Of a stretch of 42,807 bases of DNA, positions 715 to 10,549 are shown piece by piece. Under the pieces are notes generated by a model. The model was not told the DNA's origin, made no database searches, and saw only the letters and a list, made by a program, of their open reading frames with translations. The stretch covers positions 1-42,807 of the forward strand of contig NZ_FMID01000061.1 in assembly GCF_900095385.1 (NCBI RefSeq), in the 5' to 3' direction. Position 1 is the first letter of the stretch. The number at the start of each line of letters is the position of its first letter. This DNA is from Methanoculleus chikugoensis (lineage in GTDB: Archaea > Halobacteriota > Methanomicrobia > Methanomicrobiales > Methanoculleaceae). Position numbers and translations under genes: made by a program.

Positions 715-944
715 TAATCGAAGACTCTTGCACAAACACGATTACACTGGTCTCACCGGTGTCTGCAGAGATCCCCTAAAAAGAACCTAATGCCCCGATT
801 TCCAAATATTTCGTGTCTCGCCGTATTTCATGGGGCCACGATCCCGCCAGCATCTCCGTCCTGCACAAGAGAGAAAACTTCGCCTCCAATCTCTTCTTCA
901 GCATTACGTTTATCAACCCTCCTGCAAATGTGGTATTACGGAAA

Positions 945-3900
945 ATGACCTGGAACGAGGAGACCTACGTCGAAATCCCCTTCTGTGAGCAACTCGCCCG
1001 ACTGGGCTGGGAAGTCCGGCATCTCCCGGCGGGTGCCGAGCCGGGCGAATCGCAGCGGCTCTCGTTTCGTGAGGTCATCATCGAGCCGGAACTCAGGGAG
1101 GCCCTCCGGGCGATCAACCCCTTCCTCGAGGACGACCAGATCACCGAGGTCATCACCCGCCTTGACACCATCCCGCAGACCCCGCTCATCGAGGCGAACA
1201 TCGCCGCCACCGATCTGCTCCTGAACAACACCACCGTCCACGAAAACCGCATCGACGGCACCCCGAGCCCCACTGTCCGCTACATCGACTTCGACCACCC
1301 GGAGAATAATCGGTTCCTTGCAGCCCGGCAGTTCAAGGTCGCCGTCCCCGGCACCACCAAACACATCATCCCCGACATCACCCTCTTCGTCAACGGTATC
1401 CCGCTCATTGTTATCGAATGCAAATCCCCCGCCATCCCCGAGCCTATCCAGGAGGCCGTCACCCAGCTGCGGCGCTACAGCAACAGCCGGGACACAGAAC
1501 TCCCCGAGGGCAGCAACCGGCTCTTCACCTACAACCTCTGCATGATCGCGACTTCGCGGGAAACGGCGAAGGTCTCCACCATCGGCGGGCGGGAGGAGCA
1601 CTACCTGGAGTGGAAAGATCCTTATCCGACCCCCTTCTCCGCGATCAACCCGGACGGCCAGCCTCCCGACAGCCAGCAGCGGTTGATCCACGGGATGCTT
1701 GCTCCCGCCCGCCTCCTTGAGATCCTCCGGAACTTCACCGTCTTCCGTGAGAACGATCAGGGTAAGAAGATCAAGATCGTCGCACGCTACCAGCAGTACC
1801 GGGCGGTGCAGAAGATCCTCGCACGGCTGCGTTCCGACCAGGATCCGAGAGAGAAAGGCGGCGTCGTCTGGCACACCCAGGGCTCCGGCAAATCGCTGAC
1901 GATGGTCTTCCTCATCCGGGCGATGCGAAAAGACCCCATCCTGAAGAAGTACAAGGTCGTTCTCATCACCGATCGCACCGACCTTGAGCGGCAGCTCGAG
2001 GAGACCGCGGCCACGGCCGACGAACAGGTTTATACCGCCGGGAACATCGCAGAACTGAAAGCCCTCCTGCAGACCGACACCTCAAACGTCGTCATGGGCA
2101 TGATGCAGAAGTTCCAGGAGAAAGGGGGGAAGAGGGTCCGGAAGTTTCCGATCCTTAACCGGTCGGATAAGATCCTCCTCCTGATCGATGAGGCGCACCG
2201 GACCCAGGCGTCGGTCCTCGGCGCAAACGTCGAGCAGGCTCTCCCGAACTGCACCCGGATCGCCTTCACCGGCACCCCCATCATGAAACCGAAGGCCGTC
2301 CGCGGTGGGCAGCGCCGGAGACGGACCACCACCGGCATCTTCGGCGAATACATCGACAAATACACCATCCGGGAGTCGATCGAGGACGGAAGCACGCTAC
2401 AGATCATCTACGAAGGCCGGACATCCAGAGATGCCGTCAAAGACGGGCGGGCGCTCGACGACCTCTTCGAGGACATGTTCAAGGACCATACCGAAGAGGA
2501 GAAAGAAGCCATCCGAAAGAAGTACGGCACTTACCGGCGGGTGTTGGAGGCGCCCCGCCGGATCGAGAAGATCGCCGCCGACATCATCGACCACTACCGC
2601 ACAAACATCCTCCCCAATGGGTTCAAAGCGCAGGTCGTCGTCTCCAGCCGGCTCGCTGCGGTGCGTTACAAAGAAGCGCTCGACCGTGCCCTTGCAGACG
2701 CAATCGCTGACCTCGAAGCAGATGCAGGCACCCCGGGAGAAGACCTGGAGACGCTCCGACGCATCAAGACCGACGTTATCATATCGGGCTCGCAGAACGA
2801 CGAGGAGATCTTCAAGCCCTACACCAACCCGCAGAAACACGAAGCCCAGATCGCCCGGTTCAAAAAACCCCTGGACGCCGACGACCCTGAGAAGCAGGAT
2901 GGTCTGGCGCTCCTCATCGTTGTCGATATGCTCATCACCGGGTTCGACGCTCCGATCGAACAGGTCATGTATATCGACAAGAGGCTTGTCGAGCACAGCC
3001 TCCTGCAGGCCATCGCCCGGGTCAACCGCCCCGCAAGCGGGAAGAACTGCGGCTACGTTGTCGATTACTACGGGATTGGGCACCACCTCAAAGAGGCGCT
3101 CGGGGTCTTTGCGGATGAGGATGTCGAAGGAGCGTTTGACCAGCTCGGCGACGAGATCCCCAAGATGCGGGAAGCATACACTCGCCTGTTGCAGTTCTTT
3201 GCTGCGGCAGATCTCAATGCAGTCCCGGAGAGTGCAGCTGAATCCTCCTCCTATGCGGGCAGAACTCTTGATCCCCTCGGGAACGAGTACGCAATCAACG
3301 AATGCGTCGAGTACCTCGCCGATGAAGAAAAACGGGCGGAGTTCCTCGTCTTGTACAAATCGTTTGCCCGGAAGGTCGATATGATCCTCCCGGACAGGCG
3401 GGCGCTGGATTATGTCCACCCGGTGAAGGTCATCGGGTTCATCAACACCCTGGCCGAACGGCGCTACCGCGACCGGACGCTCAACCTCGCGGGCTGCGGA
3501 GAGAAAGTCCGAGCACTCATCGACGACTACGTCTTCTCGCAGGGCATCGACCCGAAAGTCCCGCCGGTCTCGATCACCTCCGATGACTTCGAAAAGTCCT
3601 TGAGTAGCCACCGCTCGAACAAGGCAAAGGCCTCGGAGATGGCTCACGCGATCCGCTACCACATCTCGCAGCGCTACGACTATGATCCTGAGTTCTACCA
3701 GACACTCAGCGAACGGCTCAACGATCTTCTCACCGCTCACGAGGAAGACTGGGACCTACTCGTCGAAGAACTCCGGAAGTTTCTCGAAGAGGTACGGGAA
3801 GGGCGACAGGATGTCGAGCACGGCCTTGACCCGGTTATTGAAATGCCGTTCTACGACATCCTGGTAAAGGAAGTATACGGCTCGAAGGATCTTTCGGAGA

Positions 3901-4142
3901 AGGAAAGAGAGATGGCTGCCGGAACGACAAAAGATATTGTCTCCATGATCCAGCGGGAAATCCGAAAAGTGGACTTCTGGAAGAAAGCGACCGAAAAGCA
4001 ACTCCTTCGCCGGTATATCAAGGAGATCCTGCTCGAGTCACGGCTTCCCGAAATTCTTCAGAAGCGCAATGCCATTACGGATCGGTTTATCCGCCTTGCC
4101 GAACACCTTGATGCAGAGTTCAAACACAGGGTGATCCTATAA
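945..4142 (+). CDS. hsdR: Type I restriction enzyme, R (endonuclease/translocase) subunit
   Basis: HsdR is the ATP-dependent translocase and nuclease subunit of type I restriction-modification complexes. Numbering from ATG at 945 (1065 residues), a PD-(D/E)xK nuclease has the ECKS motif near 158, Walker A GSGKS at 313-317, DEAH at 415-418, FTGTPI after it, and the helicase motif VI region QAIARVNR near 688; the C-terminal part is the helical region that docks on HsdM. The frame extends up to a GTG at 813, but the added residues do not resemble the family N-terminus, so ATG 945 is preferred. No HsdM or HsdS gene is in the window, so activity depends on partners upstream of the transposase fragment or elsewhere. 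The next gene overlaps its stop. Confidence 0.9.
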   Translation: MTWNEETYVEIPFCEQLARLGWEVRHLPAGAEPGESQRLSFREVIIEPELREALRAINPFLEDDQITEVITRLDTIPQTPLIEANIAATDLLLNNTTVHENRIDGTPSPTVRYIDFDHPENNRFLAARQFKVAVPGTTKHIIPDITLFVNGIPLIVIECKSPAIPEPIQEAVTQLRRYSNSRDTELPEGSNRLFTYNLCMIATSRETAKVSTIGGREEHYLEWKDPYPTPFSAINPDGQPPDSQQRLIHGMLAPARLLEILRNFTVFRENDQGKKIKIVARYQQYRAVQKILARLRSDQDPREKGGVVWHTQGSGKSLTMVFLIRAMRKDPILKKYKVVLITDRTDLERQLEETAATADEQVYTAGNIAELKALLQTDTSNVVMGMMQKFQEKGGKRVRKFPILNRSDKILLLIDEAHRTQASVLGANVEQALPNCTRIAFTGTPIMKPKAVRGGQRRRRTTTGIFGEYIDKYTIRESIEDGSTLQIIYEGRTSRDAVKDGRALDDLFEDMFKDHTEEEKEAIRKKYGTYRRVLEAPRRIEKIAADIIDHYRTNILPNGFKAQVVVSSRLAAVRYKEALDRALADAIADLEADAGTPGEDLETLRRIKTDVIISGSQNDEEIFKPYTNPQKHEAQIARFKKPLDADDPEKQDGLALLIVVDMLITGFDAPIEQVMYIDKRLVEHSLLQAIARVNRPASGKNCGYVVDYYGIGHHLKEALGVFADEDVEGAFDQLGDEIPKMREAYTRLLQFFAAADLNAVPESAAESSSYAGRTLDPLGNEYAINECVEYLADEEKRAEFLVLYKSFARKVDMILPDRRALDYVHPVKVIGFINTLAERRYRDRTLNLAGCGEKVRALIDDYVFSQGIDPKVPPVSITSDDFEKSLSSHRSNKAKASEMAHAIRYHISQRYDYDPEFYQTLSERLNDLLTAHEEDWDLLVEELRKFLEEVREGRQDVEHGLDPVIEMPFYDILVKEVYGSKDLSEKEREMAAGTTKDIVSMIQREIRKVDFWKKATEKQLLRRYIKEILLESRLPEILQKRNAITDRFIRLAEHLDAEFKHRVIL

Positions 4143-4816
4143 AGGGGCGAGAACTCACCTATCAGCTGATTCGTTCGTCAAGGAAATCGCTTGGCCTTAC
4201 CATCGAACGCGATGGATCGATTATTCTCAGGGCACCGGATGACTGCCCGGAGCATGCAATCAATGCTTTTTTCCAGAGCAAGAAATTCTGGATCTACCAG
4301 AAACTGGCAGAAAAACGCCTCTTTGAAGAGACCCCCCCGAAAAAAGAGTATGTAAATGGTGAGGGTTTCCCATACCTCGGCAGGATGCATCAACTCGTTC
4401 TTATTGATGAAGGAAAACCACTCCGCCTCTACCGCAGTTCCTTTGAGATGAACCGGGCGTGTGTTGGCAGAGGACGGGAAACCTTCATTCGGTGGTACCG
4501 GGAGCATGCACGCACTATCCTGGAGAACCGGATAAATCGATATAAGGACCGGTTTGCAGTGCAACCGACCGACTTGAAGGTTCTCGATCTCAAGTACCGG
4601 TGGGGATCGTGTTCTCAGGACGGCACGCTCAATTTTCACTGGAAGACGATTCTTGCACCGATGACAGTGGTGGACTACATCGTGGTTCACGAAATGGCTC
4701 ATCTAATCGAGCATAATCACACCCCCGAGTTCTGGGATCTCGTCGGAACGGTTCTATCTGATTACGAGAAGAGAAAAGAATGGCTCGAGAGGAACGGGAA
4801 ATACCTGGATATTTAA
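4139..4816 (+). CDS. YgjP/DUF45-type zinc metallopeptidase, apparent ATA start
   Basis: Numbered from 4139 (about 225 residues), the protein has the DUF45/YgjP layout: an N-terminal beta domain beginning KGRELTYQLIRSSRKSL, WIYQK near 67, RWGSC near 160, and the zinc site HEMAHLIEHNH at 184-194 with a following FW. The frame opens after a stop at 4109-4111 and has no ATG, GTG or TTG before ATG 4385, which would delete about 80 conserved residues. ATA at 4139-4141 sits in an ATAA overlap with the hsdR stop and follows GGTGATC (4130-4136), a good match to the archaeal anti-Shine-Dalgarno. I infer an ATA start or a start codon recently mutated from ATG. Family members often sit beside type I restriction genes; the role there is unknown. 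Confidence 0.8.
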   Translation: MKGRELTYQLIRSSRKSLGLTIERDGSIILRAPDDCPEHAINAFFQSKKFWIYQKLAEKRLFEETPPKKEYVNGEGFPYLGRMHQLVLIDEGKPLRLYRSSFEMNRACVGRGRETFIRWYREHARTILENRINRYKDRFAVQPTDLKVLDLKYRWGSCSQDGTLNFHWKTILAPMTVVDYIVVHEMAHLIEHNHTPEFWDLVGTVLSDYEKRKEWLERNGKYLDI

Positions 4817-4832
4817 AATTTCATAGGGCACC

Positions 4833-4892
4833 TCACCCCCCGCCGAGCACCCTCACGAGCACCGCCACGACCCCGCCAGCACCTCCGCTAGT
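4833..4892 (-). pseudogene. C-terminal scrap of a small membrane protein like the one at 10286-10549
   Basis: On the minus strand a short frame reads GGAGGVVAVLVRVLGGG followed by TGA. This is nearly the same as the C-terminal membrane segment of the protein at 10286-10549 (GGIVGGVVAVIVRVMGGG). The DNA of the two places is also visibly similar. No start or N-terminal part is present, so this is a remnant. It lies just downstream of the 27-codon ORF at 4910-4993, in another frame. Confidence 0.45.
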
Positions 4893-4909
4893 TCTCCCCC
4901 TCTGAATCC

Positions 4910-4993
4910 TTATGCCTGATACCGCTTCCACTTCCGCACCTTTGCCAGGTCGATGGTAAACCCTTTGACATCTCTCACCGCCCCGACACTCAT
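4910..4993 (-). CDS. 27-codon ORF translationally coupled to the GmrSD-like gene
   Basis: The ATG at 4993-4991 overlaps the TGA of the upstream gene as ATGA, the arrangement seen at the other junction of this operon. The product (27 residues, beginning MSVGAVRDVKG and ending KWKRYQA) is not recognised. It is followed within 20 bases by an unrelated gene scrap, so it may be the surviving N-terminus of a third operon gene rather than a complete small protein. Confidence 0.35.
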   Translation of the reverse strand: MSVGAVRDVKGFTIDLAKVRKWKRYQA

Positions 4994-6798
4994 ACCGTCT
5001 CTACCTCCTCCCGGATCACGGGCTTGCCCATCGCGGCCTCGATACGGTCGAGGATCTCCTCGTACCGCTGGTCGTAAAACGCCCAGAAGTCGTCGTTCCG
5101 AAGCGCTTCCGGGTCGATGACGTGTGAGCGCAGGATCTGATCCAGACGCTCTGCAGGAATCCCCTCGTTCTTCTCGATCCGCTGAAGGTATGCGCTCGGT
5201 GCGCTCCCGCCGATCATACGGTTGGTGCGTGCCGAGAGAGGCGCCTTGTTGATGATGCAGTCCACCTCCGCCCCATGCCTGTTGATATCCTGCTCGTTGG
5301 CATGATCGTCGCACCATTTTCGGGGGAAGATGTGGTGAATATCGACGTTCTCATCGTAATAACTGGTAATATCGATCGGCTGGCCGGAGCGGAAGTCCTC
5401 ACACCCGTCCCGCATCATCAGCGCGAAGATCCCCTTGTATGCCGCACTCCGGCGGCTTGTCAGTTCTTCGAGGCGGGCTCCGGAGAACGTGGCCTCTTTC
5501 ACCGCCGTAGGTTCGTCGCCACCCCGGGCCCACGCGATCAGTTCAGGGAGATCCTTGGAAAACCGGCTCTCAATCGTGCTCCCATATAATTCGCCGAAGA
5601 CCCCGCACCAGTACCACCGCGAGAGGAGTTTTCTCACCGTATCGTTATCTGCCTCATCGCCCAGAACCGCGAGAGTGGCGGCCAGCGGAACGATCTGCGT
5701 CCGGTACGGCAGGTCACGGCTGATGAAGATCTTCTGCATCCGCAGGAACTTAGCCGCCTTCAGGAACCCTTCGACCACCGCGTCCCGGTGCTCACGGTAA
5801 TCATCAAGTTTGAGTTTGAGGATGTCTTTGCGCTTGCAGCTGATTGCAGGCGCACGCCCGTCCGGATCGGTTCCGTCGACGTGCTCCCGGTAACGCTTCA
5901 TCGTCGCAAGCAGGGTGACCGCCTGGAGGAAGTCGTCGCTCGGGATCTTTCTCAGGACCTCCTCTCTGGCGAATCGTTGTGCGATCTTCTGCCAGTCGTC
6001 ACGGAGCGAGAAATTATCGGCTGCAAATGTGGCGGTCAGGAGTTCAAAGACCGTCAGTGTTACCCCGCCGGTGTTCACCTTCTCAAAGACAAGGCAGACC
6101 GCCTCTTTTGGAGTGTCCCTCCCCATCTCGATGACCGGAAGCTGGTACTGCTCAAACCGCTGGATGATCTCCTTGTAAAATTGATTGAAGGTTCTCATCT
6201 TGGTTTTATCATAGTCCCAGTACTCGTCGTACCCCTCTTTCCAGGTGAAACTATCATACACCTGTTTCACCGGAAAGAGGCCGGCCGCATACTCCTTCTC
6301 TAGGGTGGAGTAGTCCTCGATAACCTCGCCCCGGAAGTTTCTGACGCACTTATCATCCGAGATGCTCCGGATGCACTCTTCACGATCCTCGTTGGGATCC
6401 AGACATTTTTCAATGTCAAAGTAATAGTGCCGGAAGATTGTCTTCTTCTTAATATCCTCGGTAACCACCGCTCCCGGCTTGATCAAAGCCTGGAAAAGGG
6501 CCGTGAGTCGTTGCTGCCCGTCGAGAATCAGCTTATCCGGTTCGACGTCTGATTCCAGGGGTAATCCTTCTATCGGCCGCGGCTTGAATCGGCACTCGGT
6601 ATTTCCGGTCTCGAGCATCATTACAGCCCCGATTGGGAACGAGAGGGAGACGCTTGAGAGCAGACTCCGGATCCGGTTGTCGTCCCACACCCATCCCCGC
6701 TGGAAGTCGGGGAGTTGAATCTTGCATTCGTTGATCGCCCCAAGAATATCCTTGAGGAAAACCTTGTTACTCTGGAAACTTGCAATCCCGGCAGTCAT
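4990..6798 (-). CDS. GmrSD-like type IV restriction protein (DUF262 + HNH)
   Basis: This 602-residue protein has an N-terminal DUF262 domain with LPDFQRGWVW near 29-38 and the diagnostic DGQQRLT at 93-99, and a C-terminal HNH-type nuclease with DIHHIFPRKW near 486-495 and a downstream NKAP..ARTNRMIGG segment. The family includes GmrSD/BrxU-type enzymes, in which the DUF262 domain uses nucleotides and the HNH domain cuts modified (for example glycosylated) phage DNA; fused forms carry both functions in one chain. The start overlaps the upstream Mrr-type gene by ATGA (6795-6798) and its stop overlaps a 27-codon ORF, so the three are probably one transcript. All key motifs look intact. The substrate is not known. 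Confidence 0.88.
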   Translation of the reverse strand: MTAGIASFQSNKVFLKDILGAINECKIQLPDFQRGWVWDDNRIRSLLSSVSLSFPIGAVMMLETGNTECRFKPRPIEGLPLESDVEPDKLILDGQQRLTALFQALIKPGAVVTEDIKKKTIFRHYYFDIEKCLDPNEDREECIRSISDDKCVRNFRGEVIEDYSTLEKEYAAGLFPVKQVYDSFTWKEGYDEYWDYDKTKMRTFNQFYKEIIQRFEQYQLPVIEMGRDTPKEAVCLVFEKVNTGGVTLTVFELLTATFAADNFSLRDDWQKIAQRFAREEVLRKIPSDDFLQAVTLLATMKRYREHVDGTDPDGRAPAISCKRKDILKLKLDDYREHRDAVVEGFLKAAKFLRMQKIFISRDLPYRTQIVPLAATLAVLGDEADNDTVRKLLSRWYWCGVFGELYGSTIESRFSKDLPELIAWARGGDEPTAVKEATFSGARLEELTSRRSAAYKGIFALMMRDGCEDFRSGQPIDITSYYDENVDIHHIFPRKWCDDHANEQDINRHGAEVDCIINKAPLSARTNRMIGGSAPSAYLQRIEKNEGIPAERLDQILRSHVIDPEALRNDDFWAFYDQRYEEILDRIEAAMGKPVIREEVETV

Positions 6799-7787
6799 TC
6801 TTCATCCTCCTCGAGGTCGATGAGATCGTAACTCGTCCGCATCACCCCGATATCATACTCAATAAGCAGGTTCACCATCTGCTCGCCGTTCATCAGCGCG
6901 ATGGGCGTCTTGTCCGGCTGCTCCGCCTCCTGCCGGGCGCCGGTGGAGAAGTCGCTCGTGGTGATGATCAGCCCCTGCTCGTGCACGCCGAGAGAGCCCC
7001 TGACCTGCTGGACGATCGGTGCCTGGACGTTGTTCTTCCAGCGCTTCACCTGGACCGCCATCCGCGTTTTGATGACGTCGCCGGCAACAAGCGTCCCCCG
7101 CACGTCGATGCCGCCGTCGCCGCTCGCCCGGGTGACCGCAACATCCTCGAACCCGATCTTTGCGAGCAGTTCCCCGACGAGCTCCTCGAACGCGGCGGGG
7201 TTCATCGTCCTGATCCGTTGCATGAGGTGCTCCCGCACCTCCCGGTTATGCACCTCGATCTGATAGGGGAGCCCCTCTTCGTGCCACCGGGTCAGTCCGA
7301 CGTAGCCTTTGCCGAGTTTCTCGAATCTCGGGAGTTCCCCCCGCTTGTTCTGCCGCTGGATCTCGGTGAGGATCGCGGCATACATCGTCGCTTCGGGGGT
7401 CAGGCCGCCGGTTGTGATCAGGTCGAGGTCGAGAGCCTTTCGGGTGATATCCCGGTAGTGCATCGGTTGCCTATCTGCATAATCCTCGAGCACCATCTCG
7501 GCGGCGTCGAGGAAGGACATGCTATCCCGCTCGGGTTCGGGCTCCGGAGAGGGGTTGGGATCTCCAGCCTCACGGCACCCGAAGATGCCGGGAGCTGCTC
7601 GATAAAATCTGGACTGCTCCCGGTTTCTCTTGATATCAACAGCAATCCGGGCGTTGACCGAATCCCAGGGGGTCAGCCCTGCGCTCGACCAGAGGCCTCG
7701 ATCGAGCATCCGTTGCGTGATCTCGCGGTAGTGGAGCGGTTCGCCTGCTGCACGGAGCACCTCATATGCGGTATCGAGAACGCTCAT
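6795..7787 (-). CDS. Mrr-type restriction endonuclease with two HARE-HTH domains
   Basis: The 330-residue protein has two HARE-HTH domains: residues 1-75 (PLHYREITQRMLDRGLW) and about 90-165 (PMHYRDITRKALDLDLI), joined by a Pro/Glu-rich linker near 78-88. The C-terminal half is a Mrr_cat PD-(D/E)xK nuclease, with GGIDVRG (Asp228) and QVKRW (Gln246, Lys248). Mrr-type enzymes cleave modified or foreign DNA; HARE-HTH domains are thought to recognise DNA or its modifications. The gene leads the operon with the GmrSD-like gene, joined by an ATGA overlap. Both partners belong to modification-dependent restriction families. The tandem HARE-HTH arrangement probably sets the substrate range, which is inference. 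Confidence 0.88.
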   Translation of the reverse strand: MSVLDTAYEVLRAAGEPLHYREITQRMLDRGLWSSAGLTPWDSVNARIAVDIKRNREQSRFYRAAPGIFGCREAGDPNPSPEPEPERDSMSFLDAAEMVLEDYADRQPMHYRDITRKALDLDLITTGGLTPEATMYAAILTEIQRQNKRGELPRFEKLGKGYVGLTRWHEEGLPYQIEVHNREVREHLMQRIRTMNPAAFEELVGELLAKIGFEDVAVTRASGDGGIDVRGTLVAGDVIKTRMAVQVKRWKNNVQAPIVQQVRGSLGVHEQGLIITTSDFSTGARQEAEQPDKTPIALMNGEQMVNLLIEYDIGVMRTSYDLIDLEEDEE

Positions 7788-7931
7788 CCCTCATCTCCTG
7801 CCCAGAGAGCTGAATATCTGCGTTTGGGTTGATGTCACCGATAATTTGCTCTTTGGTTGCGGAGAGTGTTCCGTGCGCTGAAAATCCTCCATACAATTAT
7901 CCGGTGGTGTGAAAGGGTATTAATATTGACT

Positions 7932-8213
7932 ATTTGGAGTTGCAGCGTCCATCATCCGGCATATGCAGCGGAACACCGCCCGGACGAATAGATCTCCCCC
8001 GACCAGATCAGGAGATACAATGCCTACTCCCGGTCGAACCGCATCCCTGTCTTCGTGGTGATTGGTGTCGGAGGCAGCCCGAAAAAGCCGGCAACGATGT
8101 TCTGTATCCCTCTCAGAGATGCAAAATACCCCGAAATCTTCCCGAGCGTCTTTGAAAAGTATGAGCGGGACCCCGGCAAGACCTTCTTCTGGCGGGACGG
8201 GATGCTGAAGTAA
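7932..8213 (+). pseudogene. C-terminal remnant of an unidentified gene with an in-frame stop
   Basis: The frame reads HHPAYAAEHRPDE, then TAG at 7989-7991, then ISPDQIRRYNAYSRSN, IPVFVVIGVGG and a tail ending FFWRDGMLK before TAA at 8211-8213. The protein-like composition continues on both sides of the TAG and there is no start codon, so this looks like the broken end of a longer gene. The pattern resembles the C-terminus of PD-(D/E)xK-like nuclease proteins, but I cannot name the family. It is on the opposite strand to the Mrr/GmrSD operon. Confidence 0.5.
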
Positions 8214-8383: not shown

Positions 8384-9169
8384 TCACCCGGAAGCCGTCC
8401 CGGCCATCTCCCGGAGGTGCTGCATAATCCGGTCTTTGTTCCCCGGCAGGTTTGAGAACTGCTTATCGCAGACATCGCTGAACTTCGCGAGGACCTTGCG
8501 GTTGACCTCCTCCTGATCCTCGAATATGCCGACCGAGACGAAGGGCCGCCCCCACTTCTCGAACTGCAGGATGTTTATCGTCGCGTCACGGACCCGGTCG
8601 TCGTTCGCGAGCGCAAAGATGTAGATCGGCCTCTGCATGCCGTTGATCTTGCAGTCAACGGTGTATTTCCCTTCCGGATCATGCTCGGGATCGTGCCAGT
8701 CAAACTCCCTGCGCCCCTCAGGGACGGCCTCCTCGATGAGCGCACGGAGATCCTCCTGGAACGTGGAGTAAACGCGCGATCTCGACAGATACGTAAGATC
8801 CGATATCCGGATCAGCGCCTGGATGAAACTCCAGAGGGCATCCCCAAACCGGTCGCCCGTGATGCGAATAGCGAGCTCGCCCCGGTTGTTCTCCAGCCCG
8901 AACCGGGACAGCACACTCGCGATCACCTTCTGGCGGGTTCCCCGCTCTAACTCCCTTGCGTCGATCGAGTAGGTCAGGTGCATGAGGGTATGCCCCTCAT
9001 CCGTCAGCGTCCAGGCGCCGTCCTCATCCTTCAGGACGATCGCGAGGTTATCCCCATCGTCAAAGACAAACGGTGTGAAGACCCGGTACCGGTTGATACC
9101 CTCCGGGCGGAGATGGATCTGGCTGCAGACCTTCCTCCGAAACTCCTCTTCGATTGCCTCGATTGCCAT
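8384..9169 (-). CDS. DUF1828/DUF1829 domain protein
   Basis: The 261-residue protein has an N-terminal DUF1828-type domain (about residues 30-105, with [16 protein letters not shown]) and a C-terminal part (about 115-255) that fits DUF1829. It has no signal peptide or membrane segment. DUF1828 proteins are uncharacterised and are often found in mobile or defence-rich regions. It starts three bases after the stop of the 161-residue gene upstream, so the two form an operon. No catalytic motif can be pointed out. The pair could act as a defence or toxin-antitoxin-like module, but that is inference from context only. Confidence 0.7.
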
Positions 9170-9172
9170 TGG

Positions 9173-9658
9173 TTATATCCCCCAGTCGGTAAGATCCTTC
9201 GTGGTTACCGCTGACCCCTCAAACCCGCAGTCATTGAACATGCTCTTCAGCGCGCCGTGGTGATCCGAGTACCGGTCTGTCGGAACCGCATACCCATCCT
9301 CGTTCCAGCCCGCGGTCTGGTAGCGCTCTGTTGCAGTATGGATGTGGAAATCATAAAACTTCTCCTGCTCAAGCCTGTTCGTGTGTTCGTGACTTTTCCC
9401 GTTATATCGGCGTAGCCGGAACACCTGGTTTGTGTTTGGAATGATATAGCCGAGGATCACGGAGAAGTCCAGCGAGTTGAATAGACTTTGCCGAAATATT
9501 AACCTGAACCGGGATTGATTCGCACCCTCTATACCGATCTCGTACTCCTTATGGCCGCCCTTCTCTTTAGGGCGAAATCTCCTGGAGAAATCTCCCGGCA
9601 GCGGCTTGGCCTCTCTGAGTAACGCATCGATCTCATCATCAGTGAGCCGCAAATTCAT
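9173..9658 (-). CDS. DUF6978-like protein paired with the DUF1828 protein
   Basis: The 161-residue soluble protein has a charged N-terminal helix (LTDDEIDALLREAKPLP), then a compact region with LDFSVILGYIIP, FRLRRYNGKSHEHTN and FYDFHIHTATERYQ, ending in DCGFEG. The order of these motifs matches my memory of the DUF6978 family, which occurs beside DUF1828 proteins; the family name is less certain than the pairing. The conserved histidines in KSHEHTN and DFHIHTATERY could be catalytic or metal-binding, but no fold is known to me. It is the first gene of the two-gene unit; upstream lies about 100 bases without a gene. Confidence 0.6.
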   Translation of the reverse strand: MNLRLTDDEIDALLREAKPLPGDFSRRFRPKEKGGHKEYEIGIEGANQSRFRLIFRQSLFNSLDFSVILGYIIPNTNQVFRLRRYNGKSHEHTNRLEQEKFYDFHIHTATERYQTAGWNEDGYAVPTDRYSDHHGALKSMFNDCGFEGSAVTTKDLTDWGI

Positions 9659-10285: not shown

Positions 10286-10549
10286 TCATCCAGTCTCTCT
10301 GGACTCACCCCCACCCATCACCCGCACAATCACCGCCACCACCCCGCCGACGATCCCGCCCGCCCCGGCGCCGAGCGTCGAAACTCTCCGCTCCTCGCCG
10401 GCCTTCTCCGCCTGCCAGCCCTCCAGCGCCCGGATCCGGGCCTCAAACTCCTCGTCCTGGGCCTCCATCCGCTGCAGCATCCTGCAGATCCACTTCACAT
10501 CCCGGTTCGTCTCGTAAACGAGCTCCCGGGTGGTCTTTTCCTCGGTCAT
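10286..10549 (-). CDS. Small coiled-coil protein with a C-terminal membrane helix, provirus-like
   Basis: From the ATG at 10549 the product has 87 residues: a charged helical part (MTEEKTTRELVYETN, MLQRMEAQDEEFEARIRALEGW) likely to form a coiled coil, and a glycine/valine-rich membrane segment (GAGAGGIVGGVVAVIVRVM) near the C-terminus. This layout resembles hemolysin XhlA-type or holin-associated proteins of viruses, but there is no clear sequence motif. A longer reading from 10618 adds residues that look non-coding. It is divergent from the gene at 10732. A scrap of a near-identical C-terminus is found at 4833-4892. Confidence 0.6.
   Translation of the reverse strand: MTEEKTTRELVYETNRDVKWICRMLQRMEAQDEEFEARIRALEGWQAEKAGEERRVSTLGAGAGGIVGGVVAVIVRVMGGGESRETG

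Follow-up and report, generated by a model that had tools for sequence, protein, structure and literature searches.

The window (the whole stretch of 42,807 nucleotides analysed here) carries two adjacent nuclease genes on the minus strand, an mrr-type gene and a GmrSD-type gene, which lie among remnants of type I restriction-modification (R-M) genes and converge with an hsdR gene on the plus strand. The features of the locus are as follows:

7874–7936, minus strand: first codons of hsdM (from the ATG at 7892) preceded by its upstream region, a putative promoter for mrr-gmrSD
7783–7866, minus strand: internal hsdM scar, about codons 221–246, running into the hsdM end/mrr start (GGGATGA)
7787–6795, minus strand: mrr-type gene, 330 aa, with profile matches to HARE-HTH (twice) and Mrr_cat
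Residues 1–73 of the mrr product: first HARE-HTH domain
About residues 91–166 of the mrr product: second HARE-HTH domain, as placed by the predicted fold
Residues 192–308 of the mrr product: Mrr_cat PD-QXK nuclease domain
6795–6798, minus strand: ATGA overlap of mrr and gmrSD
6798–4990, minus strand: GmrSD-type gene, single chain, 602 aa, with a profile match to GmrSD_N
Residues 16–258 of the GmrSD-type protein: DUF262/GmrSD_N domain with DGQQR motif
About residues 484–530 of the GmrSD-type protein: HNH-like C-terminal stretch
4990–4993, minus strand: ATGA overlap of gmrSD and the hsdS stump, a putative former translational coupling
4872–4993, minus strand: hsdS 5′ stump, by DNA homology to intact hsdS
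4993–4910, minus strand: 27-codon ORF within the hsdS stump, ending at a 2-base deletion at about hsdS codon 28
813–4142, plus strand: hsdR, 1109 aa, convergent with the pair
813–4816, plus strand: hsdR and a YgjP-like peptidase gene, with no hsdM or hsdS upstream in the window

A sequence-only reading of this DNA had described an mrr gene with two HARE-HTH domains overlapping a GmrSD-like gene by ATGA, and both the coordinates and the domain matches agree with it. The 330-aa Mrr protein gave two matches to HARE-HTH (whole-protein E = 5.5e−34) and also matched Mrr_cat (PF04471, E = 1.1e−28). Both profiles were matched by all 31 of the Mrr sequences compared, and the Mrr_cat residues D228, Q246 and K248 were invariant in all 31. 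The predicted fold (mean pLDDT 85) starts with two winged-helix-like units and continues into a restriction-nuclease fold; its best solved matches were MspJI and AspBHI. These are modification-dependent enzymes, and by analogy it is most likely that Mrr is a type IV-like nuclease which would prefer modified DNA. HARE-HTH domains are proposed, in passages of PMC11037411, to be readers of modified bases, either adenine or more likely cytosine. A second mrr gene, 86% identical to that of the window, was found on contig C39 of the same genome.

The 602-aa protein matched GmrSD_N (PF03235) at E = 2.6e−30, which upholds the DUF262 part of the DUF262/HNH architecture first suggested for it; for the HNH part, motifs of this type are visible in the C-terminal stretch (DIHHIFP...N...TN, in which DIHHIFP and TN are conserved), with Pfam GmrSD_C (DUF1524) falling below threshold in the profile search of this protein. 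The predicted fold had a mean pLDDT of 76, dropping below 50 at residues 478–518, and is weak over the HNH-like stretch. Three fold matches had E ≤ 0.001, all of them to BrxU chains, and BrxU was the only solved GmrSD-family match, both by sequence and by predicted fold, at 13–15% identity in the fold alignment. By this likeness the GmrSD-type protein is most likely a modification-dependent restriction enzyme which would act like BrxU, an enzyme described in passages of PMC8565348 as cutting DNA containing 5mC, 5hmC and glucosylated 5hmC and as complementing BREX.

The 27-codon ORF had been taken as coupled to gmrSD and as the possible start of a conserved third gene. The ATGA overlap is present, but the ORF does not encode a third component: taken as a protein gene, it did no better than chance expectation, and its peptide (FTIDLAKVRKWKRY) aligned with the start of HsdS from C39 and G022. 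The DNA match to hsdS (75–78%) does not stop with the ORF but continues beyond its stop codon. The stump matched the 5′ end of hsdS at 75% over 100 nt (62.6 bits, E = 6e−14), compared to a best score of 33.7 bits against the same hsd genes for 1000 control segments (173 nt each) taken elsewhere in the window. Where intact hsdS has GCGTATAAGG, the window and G004 have GCATAAGG, two bases fewer, and this loss produces the TAA at which the 27-codon ORF ends. Judged by this DNA homology, the ORF is a remnant of the 5′ end of hsdS (the gene which sets the specificity of a type I R-M system) and was cut off by a 2-base frameshift. The stump was found at three of the four loci with an mrr-gmrSD pair and other sequence takes its place at the fourth (G136), and the reading of the ORF as a conserved peptide was rejected on the DNA match and on this absence.

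Upstream of mrr, window positions 7874–7936 matched the start region of hsdM (84% over 63 nt, 69.8 bits) and positions 7783–7866 matched the middle of hsdM (75% over 76 nt, 52.7 bits). Both matches are collinear with intact hsdM, and the GGGATGA at which hsdM ends and mrr starts in intact operons is still present. The pair is flanked by hsdM and hsdS scars only and not by linked hsdM, hsdS and hsdR genes. The retained hsdM upstream region is a candidate promoter for mrr-gmrSD. Over its whole length the mrr-gmrSD cassette is 95% identical to that of G004 and 85% identical to that of G023. All three loci have the internal hsdM scar, and the upstream part was also found in G023 (the G004 contig begins just inside it). 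Because these scars are common to the window, G004 and G023, the deletion is older than the split of these copies.

Relatives of both genes were found in type I operons. On C39 the order is still hsdM-mrr-hsdS, followed by a DUF2513 gene and, further on, hsdR; in G022 it is hsdM-mrr-fic-hsdS-hsdR. Homologues of mrr lie between hsdM and hsdS in C39, G022 and G203, and homologues of gmrSD lie within type I operons in G049 and G004:C92. These homologues are R-linked ORFs, in the sense of genes located between hsd genes, and the window itself shows scars only. We then compared the HsdM of C39 to 100 relatives, of which 19 matched at E up to 1e−100. The HsdM loci of 18 of these 19 were read (G007 was left out, as its hsdM is at a contig end) and two, G037 and G093, could not be resolved, giving 16 resolvable loci. 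With genes named from Pfam or from likeness to Pfam-named genes, the hsdM-hsdS gap contained:

Mrr alone: C39
Mrr and Fic: G022; broken in G089
Fic: G011, G002, G087 and G010
GmrSD and a Hypoth_Ymh gene: G004:C92
GmrSD, SIR2 and HerA: G080 (locus L195)
SIR2 and HerA: G003 (locus L194)
YhcG: G060 and G040; stump in G065
An ORF of unnamed kind: G064
Nothing: G047 and G084

An identified gene (Mrr, Fic, GmrSD, YhcG or SIR2-HerA) thus fills the gap in 13 of the 16 resolvable loci. Of 17 hsdM ends (the 16 loci and G203), 15 have a 4-nt overlap between the hsdM stop and the ORF that follows, although it should be noted that these ends are not independent, several being of recent common ancestry. Cargo-bearing loci had the exact 4-nt overlap in 14 of 15 cases, the exception being G203, against a background of 26 of 155 same-strand neighbours across the window and the archaeal loci that were fetched. 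As a tentative proposal, which we regard as possible rather than probable, the archaeal hsdM stop may act as a “socket” where unrelated antiviral genes are repeatedly swapped into the hsdM-hsdS gap at a translation-coupling 4-nt overlap, the type I genes being a disposable chassis from which cargo later escapes to become free-standing under the hsdM promoter. No account of an hsdM-hsdS slot was found in the open-access PMC literature.

We also examined how common the pair is. Among 232 genomes of the order, GmrSD was found in 9 (cut-off E up to 1e−60) and Mrr in 13, at 14 places (cut-off E up to 1e−40). The two genes are adjacent in 4 of the 232 genomes, namely the window, G004, G023 and, from another family, G136 (whose length and coordinates are those of L082), so that adjacency in other genomes, which the sequence-only reading had asked for, was observed in two families. 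G089 and G095 carry mrr and gmrSD apart. Of the 14 places, 4 have GmrSD directly after mrr, 4 have Fic, 3 have hsdS and the remaining 3 have another neighbour; in G095 and G001, GmrSD relatives occur by themselves.

A wider scan for Mrr gave 76 loci from genome_contigs and one (L154) from viral_contigs, from which 12 weak or partial matches (L142–L153) were left out, giving a sample of 65 loci (L078–L141 and L154). Genes on fetched loci were called using our own codon-usage and longest-ORF scripts, and the neighbour lists may omit short genes. The following neighbour counts are lower bounds, many loci being on short contigs: matches to the GmrSD query at 4 or more loci, including L082, L085, L090 and L091, Fic at 5 or more, and type I genes no more than 6 ORFs from Mrr at 13 or more of the 65. 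The 43 scored downstream neighbours included GmrSD_N in 3 cases (two of them the archaeal pair), Fic_N in 3, HsdS in 2 and AAA_5 in 2, and N6_Mtase occurred once among 33 upstream neighbours. With type I genes at 13 of the 65 loci and so few HsdS and N6_Mtase neighbours, Mrr is mostly unlinked outside the order; it is a widespread nuclease whose association with type I genes is strongest in these archaea. The idea that Mrr proteins of this family have GmrSD as a constant partner was rejected (4 of 14 places in the order, 3 of 43 neighbours in the wide sample). The clearest bacterial type I case was L095 (Aeoliella), with hsdM, an unnamed gene, mrr and hsdS, and hsdR six ORFs on. In a locus from Verrucomicrobia (L090:1718–4665) an Mrr of the same family is ATGA-coupled to a distant GmrSD (query E = 1.8e−27), an independent pairing.

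The pair had been proposed to be a composite module with two modes of recognising modified DNA; a rival explanation is a true two- or three-protein module, in which Mrr would bind GmrSD and the small peptide would regulate them. What stands of the first proposal is that the two genes are adjacent, form one apparent transcription unit and are under purifying selection (see below), and the rival explanation gains from the ATGA coupling of all three ORFs, from the occurrence of the pair in 4 of 232 genomes of two families and from the separate coupling of Mrr to a different GmrSD in Verrucomicrobia. However, the peptide is the hsdS stump, Mrr in this order adjoins Fic or hsdS as often as GmrSD, relatives of GmrSD are found alone, and unrelated cargo genes are also 4-nt-coupled to hsdM, so that the coupling is no evidence of interaction. 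We therefore consider such a module improbable, and read mrr and gmrSD as two independent cargo genes of one slot, GmrSD not being a fixed partner.

Selection on the two genes was estimated as dN/dS (Nei-Gojobori, own script) in ten pairs of sequences for each gene. Values ranged from 0.13 to 0.20 for mrr and from 0.09 to 0.15 for gmrSD (0.09–0.13 among the pair loci); between the window and G023, both of which are scarred, they were 0.195 for mrr and 0.130 for gmrSD. Judged by these ratios, mrr and gmrSD are held by purifying selection after the decay of the operon. In the same comparison dS was 0.23 for mrr vs 0.81 for gmrSD, which suggests that recombination has mixed the cassette and that gmrSD may have entered separately. 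The locus could also be an eroding defence island whose last surviving genes happen to be these two, with no selection for the pair, as relics are many, the mrr of G004 is frameshifted and both cargo genes of G089 are broken. Full-length frames and dN/dS of 0.09–0.20, at dS of up to 0.8 in the scarred lineage, speak against this and make it unlikely in our view. The mrr of G023 has a shifted C-terminus with its last residues altered, and lacks the ATGA overlap.

Besides the event common to the window, G004 and G023, cargo whose type I genes are lost or fragmentary was found at three loci: G124 has the last 34 hsdM codons, then an intact mrr and a truncated fic; G201 has an intact GmrSD (45%) amid hsdM, hsdS and hsdR scars; and G031 has a match to the hsdM upstream region, then mrr and fic. 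G203 is the opposite case, in which hsdM, mrr, hsdS and hsdR are kept and the GmrSD gene found between hsdS and hsdR has been reduced to a relic. Intact fic genes were also seen beside C-terminal relics of mrr in G000:C54 (L075), G031:C6 (L076) and G001 (L073), where the Fic cargo survives alone; those of C54 and G031:C6 are seemingly in the same chromosomal neighbourhood.

The convergent hsdR is of another lineage, with 24% identity to the HsdR of C39 over 645 aa. Contig C36 (G000:C36:1-6975) carries hsdM-hsdS, and both it and the contig of the window end in what we take to be transposase-like sequence; the window hsdR and the C36 hsdM-hsdS may be one operon split in the assembly by an insertion sequence. 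With two hsdM/hsdS pairs kept in the genome, on C36 and C39, the pair might serve a type I enzyme in trans (for example that of C39 or of the convergent hsdR), much as PrrC-like guardians act in cis; passages of PMC2610378 offer a precedent in RloC beside an hsdR relic. This too seems improbable, as the two proteins belong to modification-dependent families of DNA nucleases rather than to the tRNases, and G023 carries scarred copies, with no close HsdM found in that genome at E = 1e−100.

Several further features were observed around the pair. In G011 a similar convergent YgjP-HsdR arrangement lies beside the hsdS stump. Upstream of the pair, positions 8384–9658 (minus strand) hold a DUF1828 gene (PADLOC PDC-M24B, E = 7e−23) and a weak DUF6978 match, a candidate defence pair. 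A direct repeat of 41 nt (83%) at 4837–4877 and 10308–10348, which corresponds to the 3′ end of a small gene (10549–10286), is possibly an old recombination or integration end, and its two copies might bound an integrated element; a piece resembling it lies after the hsdS stump in G011, and a gene like the small one precedes the hsdM scar of G124. Window positions 7998–8212 are a truncated copy of a 179-aa gene on C54, whose end (L075:4858-5072) they match at 94% in DNA, and shorter matches to them lie upstream of hsdM in C39.

Taken together, we consider it probable (roughly 0.8) that mrr-gmrSD was once carried as cargo between hsdM and hsdS in an archaeal type I R-M operon, now decayed, and that the pair was kept, each enzyme acting alone on modified DNA. 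The ancestral operon would have been hsdM-mrr-gmrSD-hsdS with hsdR beyond, the place of gmrSD in this order being deduced from the scars. Deletions would then have taken nearly all of hsdM, and hsdS past its first ~40 codons, sparing the hsdM upstream region before mrr, the ATGA couplings and both nuclease genes. HsdR cuts only in complex with HsdM and HsdS, so that the loss of hsdM and hsdS would be harmless to the host and the cargo could outlive its operon. In the Mrr protein the HARE-HTH domains would read a modified base and the PD-QXK domain would cut, and in the GmrSD protein the DUF262 NTPase and HNH domains would cut other modified DNA, as in BrxU. By analogy with these families, the pair likely restricts modified phage DNA through two independent enzymes, with specificities, a division of labour and any cooperation that are presumed from their relatives. 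Within an intact operon, Mrr and GmrSD may have backed up type I restriction against phages whose DNA modification evades it. Points against the cargo reading are that the GmrSD relic of G203 sits between hsdS and hsdR, that most Mrr outside the order are not in type I operons, that the mrr genes of G004 and G023 are altered and that dS differs between mrr and gmrSD; an intact hsdM-mrr-gmrSD-hsdS operon was not found among the loci surveyed.

Type IV-like genes in type I loci are already known (RloF; compare BrxU beside BREX). Passages of PMC4619093 report that GmrSD genes are enriched near type I genes, and the same source and PMC2610378 describe in part RloF, a DUF262 gene between hsdS and hsdR in Campylobacter jejuni. 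Like the ancestry proposed here, RloF and other R-linked ORFs place a DUF262/GmrS-type gene inside a type I R-M operon; unlike it, RloF lies between hsdS and hsdR, whereas here the hsdM-hsdS gap is the slot, Mrr and Fic can occupy it too, and the operon has been lost. BrxU, as portrayed in passages of PMC8565348, is likewise a single-chain DUF262 and HNH enzyme backing up a methylation-based system, but beside BREX; the partner here was type I R-M, lost in the window, and fold identity is 13–15%. HARE-HTH-nuclease fusions accompany BREX and Dnd systems according to parts of PMC12839542 and PMC10853773, and share with Mrr the HARE-HTH and PD-(D/E)XK nuclease beside a DNA-modifying system; what differs here is that HARE-HTH is present twice and that the gene sits within type I operons, the likeness being one of domain architecture. 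DarTG2, between hsdS and hsdR in the RptR island, also embeds defence genes in a type I operon, though sections of PMC12255303 present it as toxin-antitoxin cargo in another slot of an intact operon. PrrC within EcoprrI is similarly an accessory antiviral gene in a type I locus, but parts of PMC12707154 and PMC2610378 describe it as a tRNA nuclease which is switched on when the R-M enzyme is inhibited.

What is new here is that the genes are placed between hsdM and hsdS, that cargo of several kinds shares one overlap and that the pair persisted after the decay of its operon. Adjacent defence genes are often taken as one system; at this locus the scars explain the adjacency as a shared slot in a decayed operon, and such scars can help to tell true multi-protein systems from cargo inherited together. 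Should the slot prove general, unknown antiviral genes might be sought in the hsdM-hsdS gap, with the 4-nt overlap at the end of hsdM as a simple search rule.
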